The notes under the pieces: model-generated
Told to the model about the DNA's origin: nothing
The model's database searches: none
What the model saw: the letters and a program-made list of their open reading frames with translations, nothing else
Translations under genes and position numbers: made by a program
Shown here: piece after piece, positions 2,370 through 37,318 of the stretch
Numbering within the stretch: the stretch's first letter is position 1
Layout: each line of letters starts with the position of its first letter
DNA from: Mycoplasmatota bacterium
GTDB taxonomy: Bacteria; Bacillota_I; Bacilli_A; Izemoplasmatales; Izemoplasmataceae
Direction: 5' to 3'
NCBI GenBank assembly: GCA_030600605.1
Contig: JAUVLT010000009.1
Location: 1 to 41,000 of the forward strand
DNA: 41,000 nt

Positions 2370-3635
2370 TTATATTAATTCAATTATTCCTCTATTTGCC
2401 GAATTAAGTATTTCATTATTTAATTTACCAAGATTCTTGATTGTTATATCTACATCTATTTTATTTAATCCAGTACCATCACAATATGTTTTATCTTCAA
2501 CTGCCATTTTACCGGCAATCATTCCATTCATTGCAGCAAATGATACTTTATGAGTACAAGATAATTTTGCTCCATCACATATAAACCCCATTGATGTTGA
2601 TAGGTATATATTAATAGATTGTTTTATTTGCTCTCTTGTTCCACCTTTTATATAAGTTGTTACTGCTGCTGCGCTACATCCTGTTGCGTGACCAGTACCA
2701 CATAAAACAGTTACAATATTCATTTCTTGTTTAACATAAACACTTGTAAGAAATGATAAAAGAATTATCTTTTTTCGTTCGAGTTTACTTAGTTCTAAAG
2801 CATCAGCTAAAAACATTGGGGTAATGAGTGTGCCGATTCCTAAATTTCCACTACCCGCAACTCCATAGACTGTATAAATTTCTCCAGCCATTCTTAATCT
2901 TGAGGGTACAGAGATATGCATTCTTAAGAAATTAGATAAATCATACACACAATCTTTTTGAGCTTCTCTTAAATCCTCTACTAAATATTCTCCCCCTTCT
3001 TTAATTATTTCTCTTCTAGCATTTTCATATTGGACTTTCGAAGTTTCAAATAGATAATCTAGGCCTTCGAAATCCTCACTTTCAACAAAATCATATATTT
3101 CATCAAAGTTTGTAATTTTAAATCTATTTACTCTTCCAAGTAATTGTTTAGTTTCATACTCTTCAAGCAACTTTCCATTTCTTACAACCTTAACAACATT
3201 ATCATATGAATCCTTAATAACAATTTTTACTTCATCACCATCGGTAGATGTAATATTTAGTTCTTCGTATAAGACAGTATCTGGAAAATTCTTGTAAGTA
3301 ATTTCTACATCTATTTTATCTAGTATAGCTCCTATTTTTTCAATATCATCATTTGTAACACTTTCAAAAACACTTAATTGCTTTTTGGGATCTTTAAGTA
3401 AAATTCCAAGTGCCAGTGCTTTTTCTAATCCACTTTCTCTTATTCCTGGAATACCAACATTTACACTGTTTTTATATAATTCTTCACTCATTAATAATTT
3501 CACAGATTTAATTTCTTTATTTCGTAAAGTATAAGCTCCAATTGAAGCAATATATCCGACAACACCAATATCTGTACAACCCATTGTTTTTGTAATATTT
3601 GTTTTTAATAATTGTGCTACCTGTATTTTATCCAA
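2370..3635 (-). CDS. CyuA/UPF0597 family L-cysteine desulfidase-type Fe-S lyase
   Basis: 421 residues of the UPF0597/YhaM/CyuA family (serine dehydratase alpha-like fold). Characterised members use an oxygen-sensitive [4Fe-4S] cluster to break L-cysteine into pyruvate, ammonia and sulfide. Family cysteines are in place: C20 in MGCTDIG, C320 in GHATGCSAA and C353 in GFICDGAK, the likely cluster ligands, plus C360. The start is taken as TTG at 3635. GAGGTGAT (3640-3647) is spaced for it, and the ATG at 3656 lies inside the -10 box of the gene's own promoter, so it would not be on the mRNA. It is the only large gene on the - strand here. Substrate could be cysteine or a related amino acid. Confidence 0.85.
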   Translation of the reverse strand: MDKIQVAQLLKTNITKTMGCTDIGVVGYIASIGAYTLRNKEIKSVKLLMSEELYKNSVNVGIPGIRESGLEKALALGILLKDPKKQLSVFESVTNDDIEKIGAILDKIDVEITYKNFPDTVLYEELNITSTDGDEVKIVIKDSYDNVVKVVRNGKLLEEYETKQLLGRVNRFKITNFDEIYDFVESEDFEGLDYLFETSKVQYENARREIIKEGGEYLVEDLREAQKDCVYDLSNFLRMHISVPSRLRMAGEIYTVYGVAGSGNLGIGTLITPMFLADALELSKLERKKIILLSFLTSVYVKQEMNIVTVLCGTGHATGCSAAAVTTYIKGGTREQIKQSINIYLSTSMGFICDGAKLSCTHKVSFAAMNGMIAGKMAVEDKTYCDGTGLNKIDVDITIKNLGKLNNEILNSANRGIIELI

Positions 3636-3654
3636 AATAATCACCTCAAAAATC

Positions 3655-3683
3655 ATTATATCTTTAAAACGCTTTTAGAGCAA
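3655..3683 (-). promoter_or_regulatory. promoter of the CyuA-like gene
   Basis: On the - strand, TTGCTC (3683-3678), a 17-bp spacer, then TATAAT (3660-3655). Predicted start point near 3648, which supports the TTG start at 3635. Confidence 0.7.
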
Positions 3684-28295: not shown

Positions 28296-30722
28296 ATGAA
28301 AGCACTATTCAAAGTTTTAGTTCCCATTTCAATAGCTTTAATCATACTAATAGTTATTATTTTTAGTGATAATGGTGTTTTTATTCTAATATTTTCAGGG
28401 GTTGTAATATTTGTAATGGCTAATGTTTATTTTCAAATTTTTTATTATCGAAGAAAAGATCAAAAGATCTCGTGGTTATCAAAAAAATTAAAAGATACTC
28501 AAAACCTTGTTGTTAGAAAAGATATAGCTGAAAAGAAAGTAATTGCTGAAATGCCACTTGGAATCATTTTATTTGACGAAGCATTAATAATAAAATGGGC
28601 TAATAATTGCGCTAAGGATATTTTTGAAAATGTTCTAGTAAAGAGAAATCTTGAAACTCTTTCAACAGAAATATTTAATAATCTTATTAATAAACAACCT
28701 AATAAGGTGCTTATAATGAAAATATACACTCATGAGTATGAAGTGGAATTTGATTTTGAAAATTTAATTATTTATTTAACACAAGTATCTGAAAGAGAAG
28801 AATTAAAAAGAAAATATGATGATGCTACTGATGTAATTGCTGTTTTAAATCTTGACAATTTAGACGATGCAATAAGTGTTTTAGATGTATCAGAAAGAAG
28901 TTACATTCAAGGGAGTTATTTAAAGGCTTTAGAGGATTGGGGAGAAGAATTTGGATTTTATTTAATTCCAATTGCTAATTCCAAACTTATTGCTGTTATG
29001 AATAAATCAAACTTGATTGATTTAATTGAAAATGAATTTAAAATATTGAATGATATTTCCGAAATATCAAAAGAAAATGATTTACTTGTAACTTTAAGTA
29101 GTGGAATTGCTTGTGCAAATACAAAGTTTAATAAACTAGGAGACATCGCTGAGGATGCTCTTAATTTAGCATTGTCACGTGGTGGAGATCAAATAGTTGT
29201 TAATATTGAAGGTAAGGATTTACGTTATTTTGGGGGTAATACAAATACTGCTGAAAAACGTACAAGGATTACAACGAGAATTAATACTCAGAAACTAGAA
29301 AAATTGTTTGAAGAAAGTCATAGAGTATTTATAATGCCACACATTCATCCTGATACAGATGCTATTGGTGCTGCAATGGGTATCTTAAAACTTGCTCAAA
29401 CATTTAATAAAGAAGCTTACATAATTATAGACTTAGATAATACTGACAAAACTGTTAAGAAGATTCTTCAGTTAATTGAGTATGAATATGTAATATTTTT
29501 AGATTATATTATTTCTCCTTCTTTAGCTTTAGACTATATTAACAGAGAAGATTTGCTTATTTTAGTGGATCATCATTCATTTGGACAAACAATGGAAGAA
29601 AAAGTTATAAAGAAAATAAAAAAACTTGTTATTATTGATCATCATAGAAAATTAGCTGATGCAGTACCTAATGCTTTAATTAGTCATATAGAACCTTATG
29701 CATCAAGCAGTGTTGAACTTGTAACTGAGATGATAGACTTATCTAGTAAAGATGTTGAAATAAATCAGTTTGAGGCAACAGTAATGTTATCTGGTATAAT
29801 GGTTGATACTAATAACTTTATCTATCGAACAGGATCAAGAACATTTGAGGCAGCTGCCATTTTAAGGAAATTTGGAGCTGACACATTTAAAGTTAAGACA
29901 ATATTAAGAGAAGGGTTAGACGAAATTCAATTAAAATCACAATTGCTTTCGCTTGCTGAAGTAATTCATTCAAAGTTTTCAATTGTTATAGTGCCAGAAA
30001 ATATCCCTACTTCAAGGAATTTATTAGCTAAAGTTGCTGATATGTTATTAGAAATTGATGATACAGTAGCATCTTTTGCTATCGGATATTTTGAAGAAGG
30101 AATGGTCGGAATAAGCGCTAGAAGTTTAGAAGGATTTAATGTTCAAATAATTATGGAAAAATTTAGTGGTGGAGGGCATCTAAATAACGCAGGTGCACAA
30201 ATTGAAACCAAAGATATCAAAAAAGTTAAAGCAGAGTTAATTGAATTTATTAATGAAGCTATTATGGAGGAAAAACCAATGAAGGTAATACTAATCAAAG
30301 ATGTAAAAGGGAAAGGGAAGAAAGGTGAGGTTATCGATGTAGCAGCTGGATACGGAAACTACTTGTTATCAAGTAAAAACGCTATTGAAGCAACAACTGA
30401 AAATTTGCTATCAATCGAAACTGAAAAAGCTAAGAAAGAAGAAATAGAACGTAAAAATTATGAGGATATGAAAGTATTAAAAGAAAAAATTGAAGCTGAA
30501 CCAGTAAAGGTTTTTGTTAAAATTGGTGAAAAAGGGAAATTATTTGGTAAAATAAATTCTAAACAAATAGCTCATGAATTCAAAAAACAAAATGGTATTG
30601 AAATAGATAAACGAAAAATTTTATTAAAAGATAATATTTCGGCATTAGGTAATTATACAATAGAAGTAAAACTACATAAAAATGTTCTTGCTAAAATAGA
30701 AGTTTTAGTTGTAGAAGAATAG
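28296..30722 (+). CDS. fused cyclic-di-AMP phosphodiesterase GdpP and ribosomal protein L9
   Basis: 808 residues. Two N-terminal membrane helices (about 7-25 and 28-48), a PAS-like region (about 70-140), a degenerate GGDEF region (about 170-310), then DHH and DHHA1 domains with HIHPDTD (349-355), DHH (425-427), DHH (448-450), DTNNF (504-508) and GGGH (625-628). These are the metal ligands and nucleotide site of GdpP, which breaks c-di-AMP to pApA. Residues 662-808 are a complete L9. In Bacillus gdpP and rplI are adjacent genes; here no stop separates them. Such fusions are annotated in Mollicutes. An internal Shine-Dalgarno suggests L9 is also made separately. dnaB follows 9 bases on. Confidence 0.93.
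30266..30281 (+). promoter_or_regulatory. internal Shine-Dalgarno and ATG for L9 within gdpP-rplI
   Basis: GGAGG (30266-30270), 8-nt gap, ATG (30279-30281), in frame with the long gene at codon 662. The ATG is exactly the normal L9 start ([16 protein letters not shown]). Confidence 0.75.
30279..30722 (+). CDS. rplI: 50S ribosomal protein L9, probable separate product from an internal start
   Basis: 147 residues, the full length of free-standing L9. The N-terminal rRNA-binding domain has [20 protein letters not shown] and [10 protein letters not shown]; then comes the long central helix (about residues 41-75) and the C-terminal domain with [20 protein letters not shown]9 binds domain V of 23S rRNA at the base of the L1 stalk. 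Because the GdpP part is membrane-bound and ribosomes need L9 in far larger amounts, initiation at this internal ATG is the simplest way to supply soluble L9. Proteolytic release from the fusion is the alternative. Confidence 0.65.
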
Positions 30723-32090: not shown

Positions 32091-32113
32091 AAAAAATATA
32101 TTAAAAAAACAAG

Positions 32114-32144
32114 ACTTTGTAACTTTGGTTACAAGGTTTTTTTA
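32114..32144 (+). terminator. intrinsic terminator after dnaB
   Basis: ACTTTGTAAC (32114-32123)/GTTACAAGGT (32128-32137), one T-G pair, loop TTTG, then a T tract. Confidence 0.88.
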
Positions 32145-32182
32145 ATATTTTTTATATAATATAGATGACTGGGAGTGATGCT

Positions 32183-33307
32183 ATGAATTACATATTTCCA
32201 AAGTTAAAACAAAAATTTAAAAATGATGATTTTATAAGCGAAAAAATCTATTATTTAGTTGATAAACTAACCAATGAAGCCAATCTTGAAAAAGATGAAT
32301 TTTTGTATATTCTAAACAATATTACTAAAAAAGAAATAGAATATTTATTTAAAGCTTCATATAATATTAAGTATACATACTATCAAAATAGAGTATATTT
32401 AAGAGGTCTAATAGAGATATCAAACTACTGCAAAATGGGATGTAAATATTGCGGTATTAATTATAAGATTAAGACAATTAAAAGATACCGTTTATCGGTT
32501 GATGAGATTTTAGAATGTTGTAAACAAGGGTATCATTTAGGATATAAAACATTCGTAATTCAGAGTGGAGAAGATTCATATTATACCGATGATATATTAA
32601 TTGAAATGATTCAAAGAATTAAGAAAGAAATGCCAGATGTTAGAATAACTTTATCACTTGGAGAGAGATCTAAAGAATCTTATCAAAAGCTTTTTGATGC
32701 AGGCACGGATAGGTATTTATTAAGGCATGAAACTGCTTCAAGGAGGTTGTATAATTACTTACACGCTAGTTTTATGAGTTTTGATAATAGAAGAGAGTGT
32801 TTAAAGAACTTAAAAGAAATAGGATATCAAGTAGGAGCTGGGTTTATGGTTGGGTCTCCGACACAAACTAATGAAGACCTAGTTGAAGATCTAATATATC
32901 TAAAAGAACTAGATCCTCATATGATAGGAATAGGTCCTTACCTTTGTCACGAAGATACAGAATTAAGGGGAAACGAGTCGGGAACGCTATCAGAATCATT
33001 AATTATGGTAGCTTTAGTAAGACTAATACTACCTAAAGTGTTATTACCAGCAACAACAGCTCTTGGTAGTTTACATACCATTGGTAGAGAGAAAGCTTTG
33101 AAAACAGGCGCAAATGTTATGATGCCAAATATTAGTCCTACTGAAAATAGGGCAAAGTATGAAATATATCAAAATAAAATTTGTACTGCCGACACATCTA
33201 ATCAATGTAGAAATTGTATTGAAGGAAGAATTGCAGGAGTGGGACATGTAATTGATTTGGGGGTAGGAGATCATATCGACTTAGAAAGGATAACTGACAA
33301 TGATTGA
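32183..33307 (+). CDS. hydE: [FeFe]-hydrogenase maturase HydE (radical SAM)
   Basis: 374 residues. Radical SAM cysteines CX3CX2C are C83, C87 and C90 (CKMGCKYC). The C-terminal CX7CX2C (C334, C342, C345) is the optional second cluster site of HydE and separates it from biotin synthase. HydE acts on the HydG iron-cysteine product in building the two-iron part of the H-cluster. ATG at 32183 follows GGGAGTGATG; an ATG at 32165 overlaps no site. A TATAAT at 32155-32160 may be the -10, with no clear -35. hydG overlaps its last eight bases. Confidence 0.93.
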   Translation: MNYIFPKLKQKFKNDDFISEKIYYLVDKLTNEANLEKDEFLYILNNITKKEIEYLFKASYNIKYTYYQNRVYLRGLIEISNYCKMGCKYCGINYKIKTIKRYRLSVDEILECCKQGYHLGYKTFVIQSGEDSYYTDDILIEMIQRIKKEMPDVRITLSLGERSKESYQKLFDAGTDRYLLRHETASRRLYNYLHASFMSFDNRRECLKNLKEIGYQVGAGFMVGSPTQTNEDLVEDLIYLKELDPHMIGIGPYLCHEDTELRGNESGTLSESLIMVALVRLILPKVLLPATTALGSLHTIGREKALKTGANVMMPNISPTENRAKYEIYQNKICTADTSNQCRNCIEGRIAGVGHVIDLGVGDHIDLERITDND

Positions 33308-34664
33308 TAGAGAATATATTCACAATGTATTACAAGCTGGAAAAAATCCAACTATGGAAGAAATTAAAAGAATATTACAAAAAGCTAAAAAAAGAGAAAA
33401 ACTTACGCATTTAGAAGTAGCTATTTTATTAAATGCTCATGAAAAAGAACAAATAAAAGAGATATATGAAATAGCTGGCCAAATAAAAGATGAAATATAT
33501 GGACAAAGAGTTGTAATATTTGCTCCATTATACATATCAAACTACTGTGTTAACAACTGTAAGTATTGTGGTTATAGAAGAGATAATATATTTCCTCGTT
33601 TAAAATTAACCCAAGAAGAAATCAAACATCAAGCAATAAACTTAGAAAGGTTAGGGCATAAACGCCTTGCTTTAGAAGTAGGAGAATCTCCTACTGAAAC
33701 ACCAATTGAATATGTGCTTGAATCAATAAAAACAATTTATGACAATAGTTCAATTAGAAGAATAAATGTAAATATCGCAGCTACATCAGTGGAAGAATAC
33801 AAAAAATTACATGAAATAGGAATTGGAACATATATATTATTCCAAGAAACATATGATAGACCAACATTTGAAACAATGCATCCTAAAAGTCTTAAGGGTA
33901 ATTATGATTATCATTTAAGCGCTTTTGATAGAGCATTTGAAGCTGGTATTGAAGATGTTGGTGGAGGAGTTTTATTTGGACTTTACAAATATAAAAATGA
34001 AGTATTAGGATTAATAATTCATAATGAATATTTAGAAGAAAAATATGGAGTAGGATTTCATACTATTAGCGTACCTCGTCTTAAAAAAGCTGAGGGAATG
34101 GATTTAAAAGACTTTCCTCATATTATCACAGACGAACAATTTAAAAGACTTGTTACTATTTTAAGATTGGCTGTTCCTTATGTTGGAATAATTTTATCTA
34201 CAAGAGAATCTAAAGAGATTCGTCAAGAATTAATAGAACACGGTATCTCACAAATAAGTGCTGGCAGTAAGACTGATGTTGGCGGATATCATGACGTAGA
34301 GGAAGAAGAATATACTCCTCATCAGTTTGAATTATCAGATGAAAGAAGTGTTAAGGAAATAATGGATGACTTAATAAATCACGGATATATTCCTTCATTT
34401 TGTACTGCTTGCTATCGCAAAGGTAGAGTTGGTGATAGATTTATGGAATTAGCAAAGGGTGGAACTATCGGACTAATATGTGAACCTAACGCTATTATGA
34501 CTTTAACTGAATATTTAATGGATTACGCTGATCAAAAATTAAAAGACAAGGGATTAAAATTTGTTTTTCAACATGCTGAAACAATTAAAAATCAAAATGT
34601 TAAAATTAAACTTATTGAAAATATAAATAAAATTATTGAAGGAGAACGCGACTTATTCTTTTAA
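33300..34664 (+). CDS. hydG: [FeFe]-hydrogenase maturase HydG (radical SAM tyrosine lyase)
   Basis: 454 residues. Radical SAM motif CX3CX2C at C83, C87 and C90. The HydG-specific C-terminal motif CX2CX22C is exact (C368, C371, C394). That motif binds the auxiliary cluster whose dangler iron receives CO and cyanide made from tyrosine. It is close to ThiH but ThiH lacks this C-terminal extension. The start ATG lies inside the end of hydE (8-base overlap), so translation is coupled; GAAAGGATAA is a modest ribosome site. Required for active [FeFe]-hydrogenase, whose structural gene is not in this window. Confidence 0.95.
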   Translation: MIDREYIHNVLQAGKNPTMEEIKRILQKAKKREKLTHLEVAILLNAHEKEQIKEIYEIAGQIKDEIYGQRVVIFAPLYISNYCVNNCKYCGYRRDNIFPRLKLTQEEIKHQAINLERLGHKRLALEVGESPTETPIEYVLESIKTIYDNSSIRRINVNIAATSVEEYKKLHEIGIGTYILFQETYDRPTFETMHPKSLKGNYDYHLSAFDRAFEAGIEDVGGGVLFGLYKYKNEVLGLIIHNEYLEEKYGVGFHTISVPRLKKAEGMDLKDFPHIITDEQFKRLVTILRLAVPYVGIILSTRESKEIRQELIEHGISQISAGSKTDVGGYHDVEEEEYTPHQFELSDERSVKEIMDDLINHGYIPSFCTACYRKGRVGDRFMELAKGGTIGLICEPNAIMTLTEYLMDYADQKLKDKGLKFVFQHAETIKNQNVKIKLIENINKIIEGERDLFF

Positions 34665-34676
34665 AGGAGGAATTAG

Positions 34677-36074
34677 ATGAGAATTGAAATTGATTATTTA
34701 GGAAAGGTAAAACTAGAAGATGGTATTTATTACGGGATATCAACAAGTAGAGCATTAAAGAATTTCAATGTTAGCAATGAAAAAGTGAATATGAAAATAA
34801 TCTATGAGCTTGTTAATATCAAAAGACAAGCAGCTATTACAAATCGAAAATTATTATATTTAGATAGGGTTAAAGCGAAAGCAATTATTACAGCTTGTAA
34901 TAAAATACTTGAGGGAAAATACGATAATTCATTTGTCATTAATCGTTATCAGGGTGGAGCTGGTACTAGCACTAATATGAATGTTAATGAGGTTATTGCC
35001 AATGTAGCCCTTGAAATTTTAGAACATAACTTAGGTGAATATGAAATAATTCATCCTATTAATCATGTCAATCTTCATCAATCAACTAATGATACATTTC
35101 CAACAGCTATCAAAATTGCAGCTATTAAAGTAATAAGAAAACTTGCACTACAATATGCAATGCTGCAAAAAACATTCCAAGAAAAAGAAACAAAGTATGG
35201 AAAAGTGATTAAACTTAGTCGAACGCAATATATGGACGCTGTTCCCATTTTAGCCGGACAAATGTTTGGAGCATACGCTGAAACATTTTCAAGAGATAGA
35301 TGGCGTATTTATAAGGTAGAAGAAAGATTAAGAACAATAAATATTGGGGGAACAGCTATCGGAACGGGATTAAATGCTCCTTTAAAATATACATTTATGA
35401 TGACATCCTTATTACAAGAATCAACAAATATTGGATTATCAAGAGCGGAATCGTTAATTGATAATACTCAAAATCTAGATGCTTTTAACGAGGTATCAGG
35501 GTTATTAAAAGTAGCTGCTTCAACTTTAATAAAGATATGTAATGATTTAAGATTCTTAGCTTCTGGTCCAAACGGTGGTATTGGTGAAGTTATTTTGAAA
35601 GATAATCAAGTTGGATCTTCCATTATGCCAGGTAAGACTAATCCGGTTATACTAGAAATGGTAATTCAAAATGCTTATAAGGTTATTGCTAATGATTCTT
35701 TAATAAATAATTTAGTAACAAGTGGAAGTTTAGAACTTAATGCTTTTTTACCTGGTATTGGAGAGGCTTTACTTGAATCACTAGAACTATTAACTAATAC
35801 AGTAAATATTTTTAATAATAAATGTGCAAAGCATATTGAGATAGATATTAAAAAATGTACTGAAAATCTTGAGAATTCACACACATTGATTACACCTCTT
35901 ATTTCTATAATAGGTTATGATAAAGCTAGTGAAATTGTTAAGAAAGCGAATGCTTATAATAAAACAATTAAAGAAGTGTTATTGACAGAAAGATTATTTA
36001 AGAAAGATGAAATTGAAAAATTATTAGATCCTTTAAATATTACTAAACCAGGTATTATTGAAGGGGGAAAATAA
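34677..36074 (+). CDS. aspartate ammonia-lyase-like protein in the hydrogenase maturation operon
   Basis: 465 residues of the fumarase/aspartase superfamily. Conserved regions: GTSTNMNVNEV, HQSTNDTFPTA and the signature GSSIMPGKTNPV (catalytic Ser loop). The substrate strand reads SRTQYMDAVP; Gln after Thr agrees with aspartase rather than fumarase, which usually has His. Aspartases turn L-aspartate into fumarate and ammonia. It has a strong AAAGGAGG overlapping the hydG stop, and its own stop overlaps the hydF ATG (TAATG). An aspartase-like gene occurs in hyd clusters of other anaerobes. Supply of ammonia for the bridging amine of the H-cluster is a plausible but unproved role. Confidence 0.82.
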   Translation: MRIEIDYLGKVKLEDGIYYGISTSRALKNFNVSNEKVNMKIIYELVNIKRQAAITNRKLLYLDRVKAKAIITACNKILEGKYDNSFVINRYQGGAGTSTNMNVNEVIANVALEILEHNLGEYEIIHPINHVNLHQSTNDTFPTAIKIAAIKVIRKLALQYAMLQKTFQEKETKYGKVIKLSRTQYMDAVPILAGQMFGAYAETFSRDRWRIYKVEERLRTINIGGTAIGTGLNAPLKYTFMMTSLLQESTNIGLSRAESLIDNTQNLDAFNEVSGLLKVAASTLIKICNDLRFLASGPNGGIGEVILKDNQVGSSIMPGKTNPVILEMVIQNAYKVIANDSLINNLVTSGSLELNAFLPGIGEALLESLELLTNTVNIFNNKCAKHIEIDIKKCTENLENSHTLITPLISIIGYDKASEIVKKANAYNKTIKEVLLTERLFKKDEIEKLLDPLNITKPGIIEGGK

Positions 36075-37294
36075 TGAGTATGAATCAAACACCAAGAGCG
36101 TCAAGAACACATATTGCAATATTTGGAAGACGTAATGTTGGTAAATCGAGTGTTATCAATGCTTTAACAAATCAAACAATCTCATTAGTATCTAAAATCG
36201 CTGGTACAACAACGGATCCTGTTTTTAAATCAATGGAAATACTACCATTAGGTCCTGTTGTTTTGATAGACACCGCAGGTATAGATGATACTGGAGAATT
36301 AGGAGAACTTCGTATTCAAAGAACTTATGATGTGATTAATAAAACTGATATTGGAATAATTGTTTTTGATGTGAATCAAAATGATTTTAACTATGAAAAA
36401 GATTTTATTAAAGAATTTACAAAACGACAAAAACCATATCTTATGGTAGCTAATAAAATTGATATCAGCTCAGGTAGCAAAGATTTTTCTAACGTGTTTA
36501 AAGGACAAATATTAGAGGTGTCTGCAGTTACAAAAGAGGGTATTGAAGATTTGAAAAATGAAATAGGGATAACATTAAAAATTGAAGAAGAAAAATTTAT
36601 GATTGTTGGAGATTTATTGAATCCTGGGGATATTGTTGTCTTAGTTACTCCGATTGATAAAGCGGCACCTAAAGGAAGACTTATCTTACCCCAACAACAA
36701 ACAATTAGAGATATTTTAGAAAGTGATGCAATCGCTGTTGTGACTAAAGAATATGAATTAAGAGAAACACTAGATAAACTAGGAACTAAACCTAAATTAG
36801 TAATTACTGATTCTCAAGTATTTTTGAAAGTATCTGCGGATACTCCAAAAGACATTATGCTAACTTCTTTTTCAATTCTATTCGCTAGAAATAAGGGTGA
36901 TTTAGAAGAACTTGTTAAAGGTGCTAAAGCTATCGAAAAACTTGAGAATGGCGATAAAATCTTAGTAAGTGAAGGCTGTACTCATCATCGTCAAAGTGAT
37001 GATATTGGAACTGTGAAAATTCCAAGATGGCTTAGACAATATACTGGTAAAGATTTTGAATTTGTATATAGTTCGGGGTATACTTTTCCAAAAGATATGA
37101 GCGATATTAAATTAGTTATTCATTGTGGAGCTTGTATGCTTAATAAAAGTGAAATGATGTATCGAATATCTCAAGTAGTGGAAAAAGAAATACCAATTGT
37201 TAATTACGGTGTATTAATAGCTTATGTTCAAGGTATCTTTGAAAGAGCTTTAGATCCTTTCCCATTAGCTAAAATGATATATTTAGAAGAATAA
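36074..37294 (+). CDS. hydF: [FeFe]-hydrogenase maturation GTPase HydF
   Basis: 406 residues in three parts: an N-terminal GTPase (P-loop GRRNVGKSS at 18-26, DTAG, NKID), a dimerisation domain, and a C-terminal cluster domain with CTH at 302-304 and HCGAC at 350-354. The CxH-x45-HCxxC pattern is the [4Fe-4S] site of HydF. HydF is the scaffold that receives the two-iron precursor and passes it to apo-hydrogenase. Its ATG overlaps the stop of the aspartase by one base, with AGGGGG six bases upstream. Last gene of the operon, closed by a terminator. Confidence 0.95.
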   Translation: MSMNQTPRASRTHIAIFGRRNVGKSSVINALTNQTISLVSKIAGTTTDPVFKSMEILPLGPVVLIDTAGIDDTGELGELRIQRTYDVINKTDIGIIVFDVNQNDFNYEKDFIKEFTKRQKPYLMVANKIDISSGSKDFSNVFKGQILEVSAVTKEGIEDLKNEIGITLKIEEEKFMIVGDLLNPGDIVVLVTPIDKAAPKGRLILPQQQTIRDILESDAIAVVTKEYELRETLDKLGTKPKLVITDSQVFLKVSADTPKDIMLTSFSILFARNKGDLEELVKGAKAIEKLENGDKILVSEGCTHHRQSDDIGTVKIPRWLRQYTGKDFEFVYSSGYTFPKDMSDIKLVIHCGACMLNKSEMMYRISQVVEKEIPIVNYGVLIAYVQGIFERALDPFPLAKMIYLEE

Positions 37295-37318
37295 AACCTT
37301 GAATTTTCAAGGTTTTTA
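37293..37318 (+). terminator. intrinsic terminator after hydF
   Basis: AAAACCTTGA (37293-37302)/TCAAGGTTTT (37307-37316), loop ATTT, then T's. The stem overlaps the stop codon. Confidence 0.88.

Follow-up and report, generated by a model that had tools for sequence, protein, structure and literature searches.

An aspartase gene within a hydrogenase maturation operon of an Izemoplasmatales bacterium, and [FeFe]-hydrogenases without known maturases in most genomes of the order

The hydE-hydG-aspA-hydF operon and its host genome

The stretch analyzed here, referred to as the window, comprises 41,000 nucleotides of contig JAUVLT010000009.1 (C51; assembly GCA_030600605.1) from a Mycoplasmatota bacterium of the order Izemoplasmatales, a relative of Candidatus Izemoplasma. 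It carries an operon in the order hydE-hydG-aspA-hydF, in which an aspartase gene stands among the genes for HydE, HydG and HydF (HydEFG), the maturases held to be necessary for [FeFe]-hydrogenase. All four genes lie on the plus strand and are tightly packed. hydE and hydG overlap by 8 bases, a gap of 12 bases separates hydG from aspA, and aspA and hydF overlap by 1 base. The radical SAM maturase gene hydE (32183..33307) scores 481 bits against TIGR03956 (cut-off 254.6). Its first possible ATG is at 32165, but the start at 32183 is likelier because a GGGAGTG stretch lies just 5' of it. The radical SAM tyrosine lyase maturase gene hydG (33300..34664) scores 599 bits against TIGR03955 (cut-off 312), and the GTPase scaffold maturase gene hydF (36074..37294) scores 578 bits against TIGR03918 (cut-off 326). 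These three NCBIfam models are of the equivalog type. Between hydG and hydF, aspA (34677..36074) encodes an aspartate ammonia-lyase that passes the subfamily model PRK12273 with 574 bits (cut-off 510).

The maturase motifs are intact: CX3CX2C in HydE and HydG, the C-terminal CX2CX22C in HydG, and Walker A (GRRNVGKS), CxH and HCxxC in HydF. We take them to serve maturation, the cysteines as cluster ligands and the Walker A as part of the HydF GTPase. Terminator-like sites detected by a hairpin search stand on either side of the operon on the plus strand, one after dnaB and upstream of hydE (32111..32140) and one closing the operon (37293..37316); the region holds five such hairpins compared with a mean of 1.4 in shuffled sequence. 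A sequence-only reading of the window had described a four-gene operon with this spacing and intact cysteine motifs, and coordinates, NCBIfam scores and motifs all agree with it. The arrangement is genuine and not a product of chance, because aspA lies directly 3' of hydG in relatives from the order and adjoins hyd genes in several phyla.

The source genome (1,509,217 bases in 115 contigs, 99.7% complete) contains two [FeFe]-hydrogenases, detected as PF02906 matches on contigs C15 and C18, and none on the window contig C51. This bears out the earlier statements that no hydrogenase lies nearby and that one is to be expected elsewhere. The alternative that the cell has no hydrogenase is ruled out by the same two genes. 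Their H-cluster motifs are complete, save for TSCSAGW in L1 of one protein. As named partly from reading the sequence, HydA1 (C15) stands before Rnf-type genes, and HydA2 (C18) belongs to an electron-bifurcating-type hydC...hydB-hydA cluster. The glycine cleavage system (GCS) is represented by one GcvT and one full GcvH, both on contig C66 beside a lipoyl-synthase-like radical SAM protein and part of GcvP, the latter two named from reading the sequence. Another GCV_H match is weak and, judging by its neighbors, represents a biotinyl-type domain.

The search for a second aspartase proposed earlier found none in this 99.7% complete genome, so AspA is the single aspartase. The only SDH_alpha-family protein is encoded within the window (2370-3656, minus strand); it matched no NCBIfam model at E 1e-20, and it may be of the cysteine desulfidase type. 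Of five PALP proteins three were scanned: one passed a threonine synthase model, one is OrtB, and one, closest to cysteine synthase, stayed below every cut-off. None of the scanned SDH_alpha and PALP proteins (three of five for PALP) passed an ilvA or sdaA cut-off.

Around the operon lie gdpP-rplI, dnaB, prfA-like and prmC-like genes, named from Pfam domains. The first of these is a single open frame of 808 residues (28296-30722) that fuses a GdpP-type cyclic-di-AMP phosphodiesterase to ribosomal protein L9.

A hyd-associated clade of aspartases

The best solved relative of the window AspA is the aspartase 1j3u (359 bits). Compared with the Bacillus-type aspartases (PDB 1j3u, 3r6q and 3r6v), it shows full-length homology and keeps the substrate and SS-loop positions, and it differs by a Gln at a His position and by clade-specific residues between 208 and 219. 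With 459 bits it remains below the cut-off (681) of TIGR00839, the aspA equivalog model.

In order to place this enzyme, we built a tree of 81 aspartases, namely the window protein and 80 loci that were the best of 587 stretches confirmed after a pattern-based search; absence outside the clade described below is hence a statement about this sample and not an exhaustive one. The nearest named relative among these 80 is from a Candidatus Izemoplasma metagenome-assembled genome (82% identity). Each row was labeled according to hyd genes found by tblastn in flanks of up to 6 kb, some of which were ended by contig ends. All 16 hyd-labeled rows fall inside one 20-member clade with a support of 100/100, and the label changes 5 times on the tree compared with a mean of 14.9 after shuffling. 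The remaining four rows of the clade (L011, L018, L024 and L035), whose flanks show no hyd genes, come from genomes that carry HydG over cut-off. Altogether HydG passed its cut-off in 18 of the 19 genomes that supplied the clade members other than the window protein; the exception (L017) is an incomplete record in which part of hydF adjoins aspA. Outside the clade, HydG was found in one of 11 genomes examined, which account for 11 of the 61 non-clade rows. The suggestion that this aspartase subfamily co-occurs with HydEFG thus holds in the sample. Judging from this tree, the window aspartase belongs to a single supported clade, and the members sampled come from genomes with HydEFG; this association is new here.

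The active site was compared by mapping the alignment on 1j3u. T97, S136, T137, N138, T183, S314, K320 and N322, which we take to be the aspartase substrate and catalytic positions, are kept in 100% of the 20 clade rows. Clade members carry a signature (R208, W209, K213, E215, R217 and R219) that is absent or rare elsewhere. This signature and the score below the TIGR00839 cut-off would fit a changed substrate, as had been proposed, in which an aspartase-like lyase acts on another amino acid or on a maturation intermediate. The eight conserved positions speak against it, and Q184, which replaces His, is shared by 13 of the 61 non-clade rows. We therefore rejected a changed substrate, which appears very improbable given the retained active site.

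Possible roles in nitrogen supply and catabolism, and the loss of aspA

Both the aspA-hyd arrangement and the idea of a dedicated ammonia source have been in print since 2024. Pagnier et al. (J Biol Chem, PMC11736057) report aspA, sdaA or ilvA near 701 of 887 hydF genes, with aspA closest to hydF, and describe aspartate as the nitrogen source of the dithiomethylamine (DTMA) bridge via the GCS. Using E. coli AspA and electron-nuclear double resonance (ENDOR), they showed that 15N from aspartate enters the DTMA bridge of the H-cluster (PMC11736057). As in their operons, the window aspA lies beside hydF and hydG, and the genome encodes GcvH and GcvT. On the other hand, that study states that sdaA or ilvA is invariably present too where the operon contains aspA (PMC11736057), whereas none of the proteins scanned in this genome passes a cut-off for either. 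In the cultured Izemoplasma strain zrk13, hydEFG transcripts were reported to be raised in rich medium (PMC8397711).

On balance we favor an ordinary aspA-containing hyd operon, in which AspA probably helps to supply the bridge nitrogen as a useful helper and not as an obligatory maturase. AspA would split aspartate into fumarate and ammonium, and the ammonium would reach the bridge nitrogen through the glycine cleavage T- and H-proteins. HydF would help to assemble the bridge while HydG and HydE would make the Fe(CO)2(CN) part, and the matured subcluster would be delivered to the two HydA encoded elsewhere. This reading builds on the observed operon, gene identities and intact motifs, on the HydA and GCS genes and on the clade-level association. 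Nitrogen transfer by this AspA in this organism would follow by analogy with the E. coli enzyme, for which others have demonstrated it. The operon is accordingly a further case of a published arrangement, to which the single hyd-associated aspartase clade adds a phylogenetic test.

The link between AspA and the maturases was followed within the order, where HydG passed its cut-off in 18 of 90 genomes. A full-length hyd-type aspartase (67-100% identity) is present in 11 genomes, all among these 18, and adjoins hydG or hydF. In G089 only the start of aspA is visible, at a contig end, and four HydG genomes (G110, G076, G108 and G068) have no hyd-type aspartase at all. Several observations weigh against our reading. 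G110, a single-contig genome of 99% completeness, has no AspA match of any kind, yet its hydE, hydG and hydF are intact, with 77 bases from hydG to hydF, and HydA and GcvT are present. G076 and G108 have hydE-hydG-hydF with nothing between hydG and hydF, the aspA of G091 is broken across two frames, and in G111 the start of aspA contains an in-frame stop and runs into the contig end. Moreover, ammonium diffuses freely, which makes the need for a dedicated source less than obvious, and the genes flanking the hydrogenase suggest that a catabolic role of the aspartase would fit as well. Since an intact aspA is missing from the operon in several relatives with HydEFG, AspA looks auxiliary; these natural losses argue against it being essential, and it appears dispensable for retaining the maturases. 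Of the earlier proposal, a source of ammonia agrees with the published E. coli biochemistry, although it is not new, and a strict requirement is not upheld.

Separately, contig C45 of G108 and contig C1 of G109 near 82 kb (L105 and L106) each carry an extra copy of hydE, behind which hydG is reduced to roughly its first hundred residues. With about 60% identity to the window genes, these represent a degraded additional maturase pair.

The most probable rival reading is catabolic. AspA could feed a route from aspartate to pyruvate via AspA, class I fumarase and malic enzyme, with the electrons disposed of as H2; we consider this possible but doubtful. Equally tentative is the corresponding account of the operon, that aspA shares a transcript with the maturases because the cell needs aspartate fermentation and hydrogenase at the same time. 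On contig C18 of the window genome, hydB-hydA2 is followed by genes for fumarase alpha and beta and then by the malic enzyme gene. The same order follows hydA2 in G082, G083, G079, G109, G075, G110, G111 and G076, and in G091 as far as the fetched stretch reaches, which is the beginning of the malic enzyme gene. A different aspartase, only distantly related (43-45% identity, or 47% and 35% in G065, where it is in two pieces), lies directly after fumA-fumB-mae in all five genomes that carry it (G065, G066, G067, G076 and G092), and G076 has the whole string hydB-hydA2-fumA-fumB-mae-aspA. The two aspartase types occur together in none of the genomes of the order, and in genomes with the hyd-type enzyme the fumarase-malic enzyme module often lies behind hydA2 without aspA. 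However, members of the hyd clade from outside the order have no fumarase or malic enzyme in the fetched flanks, several of which were shortened. The malic enzyme gene of the window genome (L109:11588-12787, contig C18) has an in-frame stop, while the frame is open in the relative G083. G110 retains fumA-fumB-mae without any aspartase, the stretches of G077 and G081 show no module behind hydA2, and HydA1 on C15 is accompanied by Rnf genes instead of the module. Nitrogen supply and catabolism may both hold; fumarate needs an outlet in either case.

It is also conceivable that horizontal transfer merely brought aspA in together with the maturases, without any particular tie between it and maturation. 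Its repeated loss from genomes that kept HydEGF would fit such hitch-hiking. We regard this as highly unlikely, as one strongly supported clade holds the neighborhood across several phyla, and the biochemistry and neighborhood counts reported in PMC11736057 also argue for a link.

Hydrogenases without known maturases in the order

While the operon itself is ordinary, the absence of maturases around it is the bolder and more surprising point. Of the order's 90 genomes, 79 contain PF02906, the H domain of [FeFe]-hydrogenase, over cut-off. These include every one of the 18 HydG genomes, which leaves 61 of the 79 with HydA and no HydG over cut-off. HydF passed in 16 of 90 genomes, all within the 18 HydG genomes, and in none of the 61 HydG-less HydA genomes. 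HydE itself was not searched over the order; most HydG genomes show HydE cross-matches of roughly 1e-17 to 1e-23, which the other genomes lack, their best values being 7e-5 or weaker. The pattern persists in the 33 genomes with at least 90% completeness and at most 5% contamination, of which 31 have HydA, 9 have HydG and 22 have HydA without HydG. G036 and G038, both HydG-less, each consist of one contig.

We aligned 32 HydA-like sequences, 28 of group A and 4 short sensory-type sequences from G036 and G038; the tree was built without these four. L1 (TSC[CS]P), L2 (MPCxAKK) and L3 (ExMxCxGGCxxGGGQP) are intact in each of the 22 group A sequences that come from HydG-less genomes; an altered L3 was seen in one HydA (L134) of the HydG-bearing G109. 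In the tree, HydG-less rows interleave with HydG-bearing rows, with 4 label changes for 6 rows. The best-matching HydG-less HydA share 63-69% identity with proteins of G112 and G110, and one G036 protein matches the bifurcating HydA1 (8a6t) over its whole length with 632 bits.

These data leave four candidate explanations: a new route to the [2Fe] subcluster, its import or scavenging, an enzyme that works without [2Fe], and maturases that have diverged beyond the reach of the models. The conserved HydA motifs, which presumably include residues that matter only with [2Fe], speak against an enzyme without it. That HydG-less genomes make or obtain the subcluster by a HydEFG-independent route, import being one possibility, is a tentative proposal, and on present evidence we would sooner doubt it than not. 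In this reading, their hydrogenases would be orthologs of those in relatives that bear HydEFG. If it is true that an order keeps conserved HydABC without HydEFG, this would imply a new maturation or scavenging route, or activity of the enzyme without the [2Fe] center.

The surroundings of hydA were compared in genomes whose fetched stretches held HydA, namely 56 of 61 HydG-less and 17 of 18 HydG genomes (63 and 44 loci, respectively); not all HydA loci were fetched per genome, and HydG-less genomes contributed mostly one each. No replacement maturase appeared beside hydA in the HydG-less genomes. Leaving aside the families of hydC, hydB and hydA, just two kinds of neighbor came up in at least 5 genomes, a Crp-type regulator and an ABC importer pair made up of a substrate-binding lipoprotein and a permease. 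The importer pair stands no more than about 6 kb from hydA in 18 of 56 HydG-less and 0 of 17 HydG genomes (Fisher p = 0.008, with related genomes treated as independent). Examples are L136, L146, L147, L149, L152, L187 and L188, sometimes with the regulator alongside. The importer profile gave one match to solved structures (3hn0, 'nitrate transport protein') and none in NCBIfam. The idea that [2Fe] is imported through this transporter may be entertained but is weak.

In the literature searched we found no bacterial order with HydA beside such a transporter, nor one with HydA and no HydEFG; the precedents for the latter are Giardia, other protists and Rhodospirillum rubrum. Like Giardia (PMC11437800) and R. 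rubrum (PMC4967309), the HydG-less genomes have an [FeFe]-hydrogenase gene and no detected HydEFG. Unlike in these precedents, here the condition applies to most genomes of a bacterial order, and the majority of hydrogenases examined are of the bifurcating HydABC type with complete motifs.

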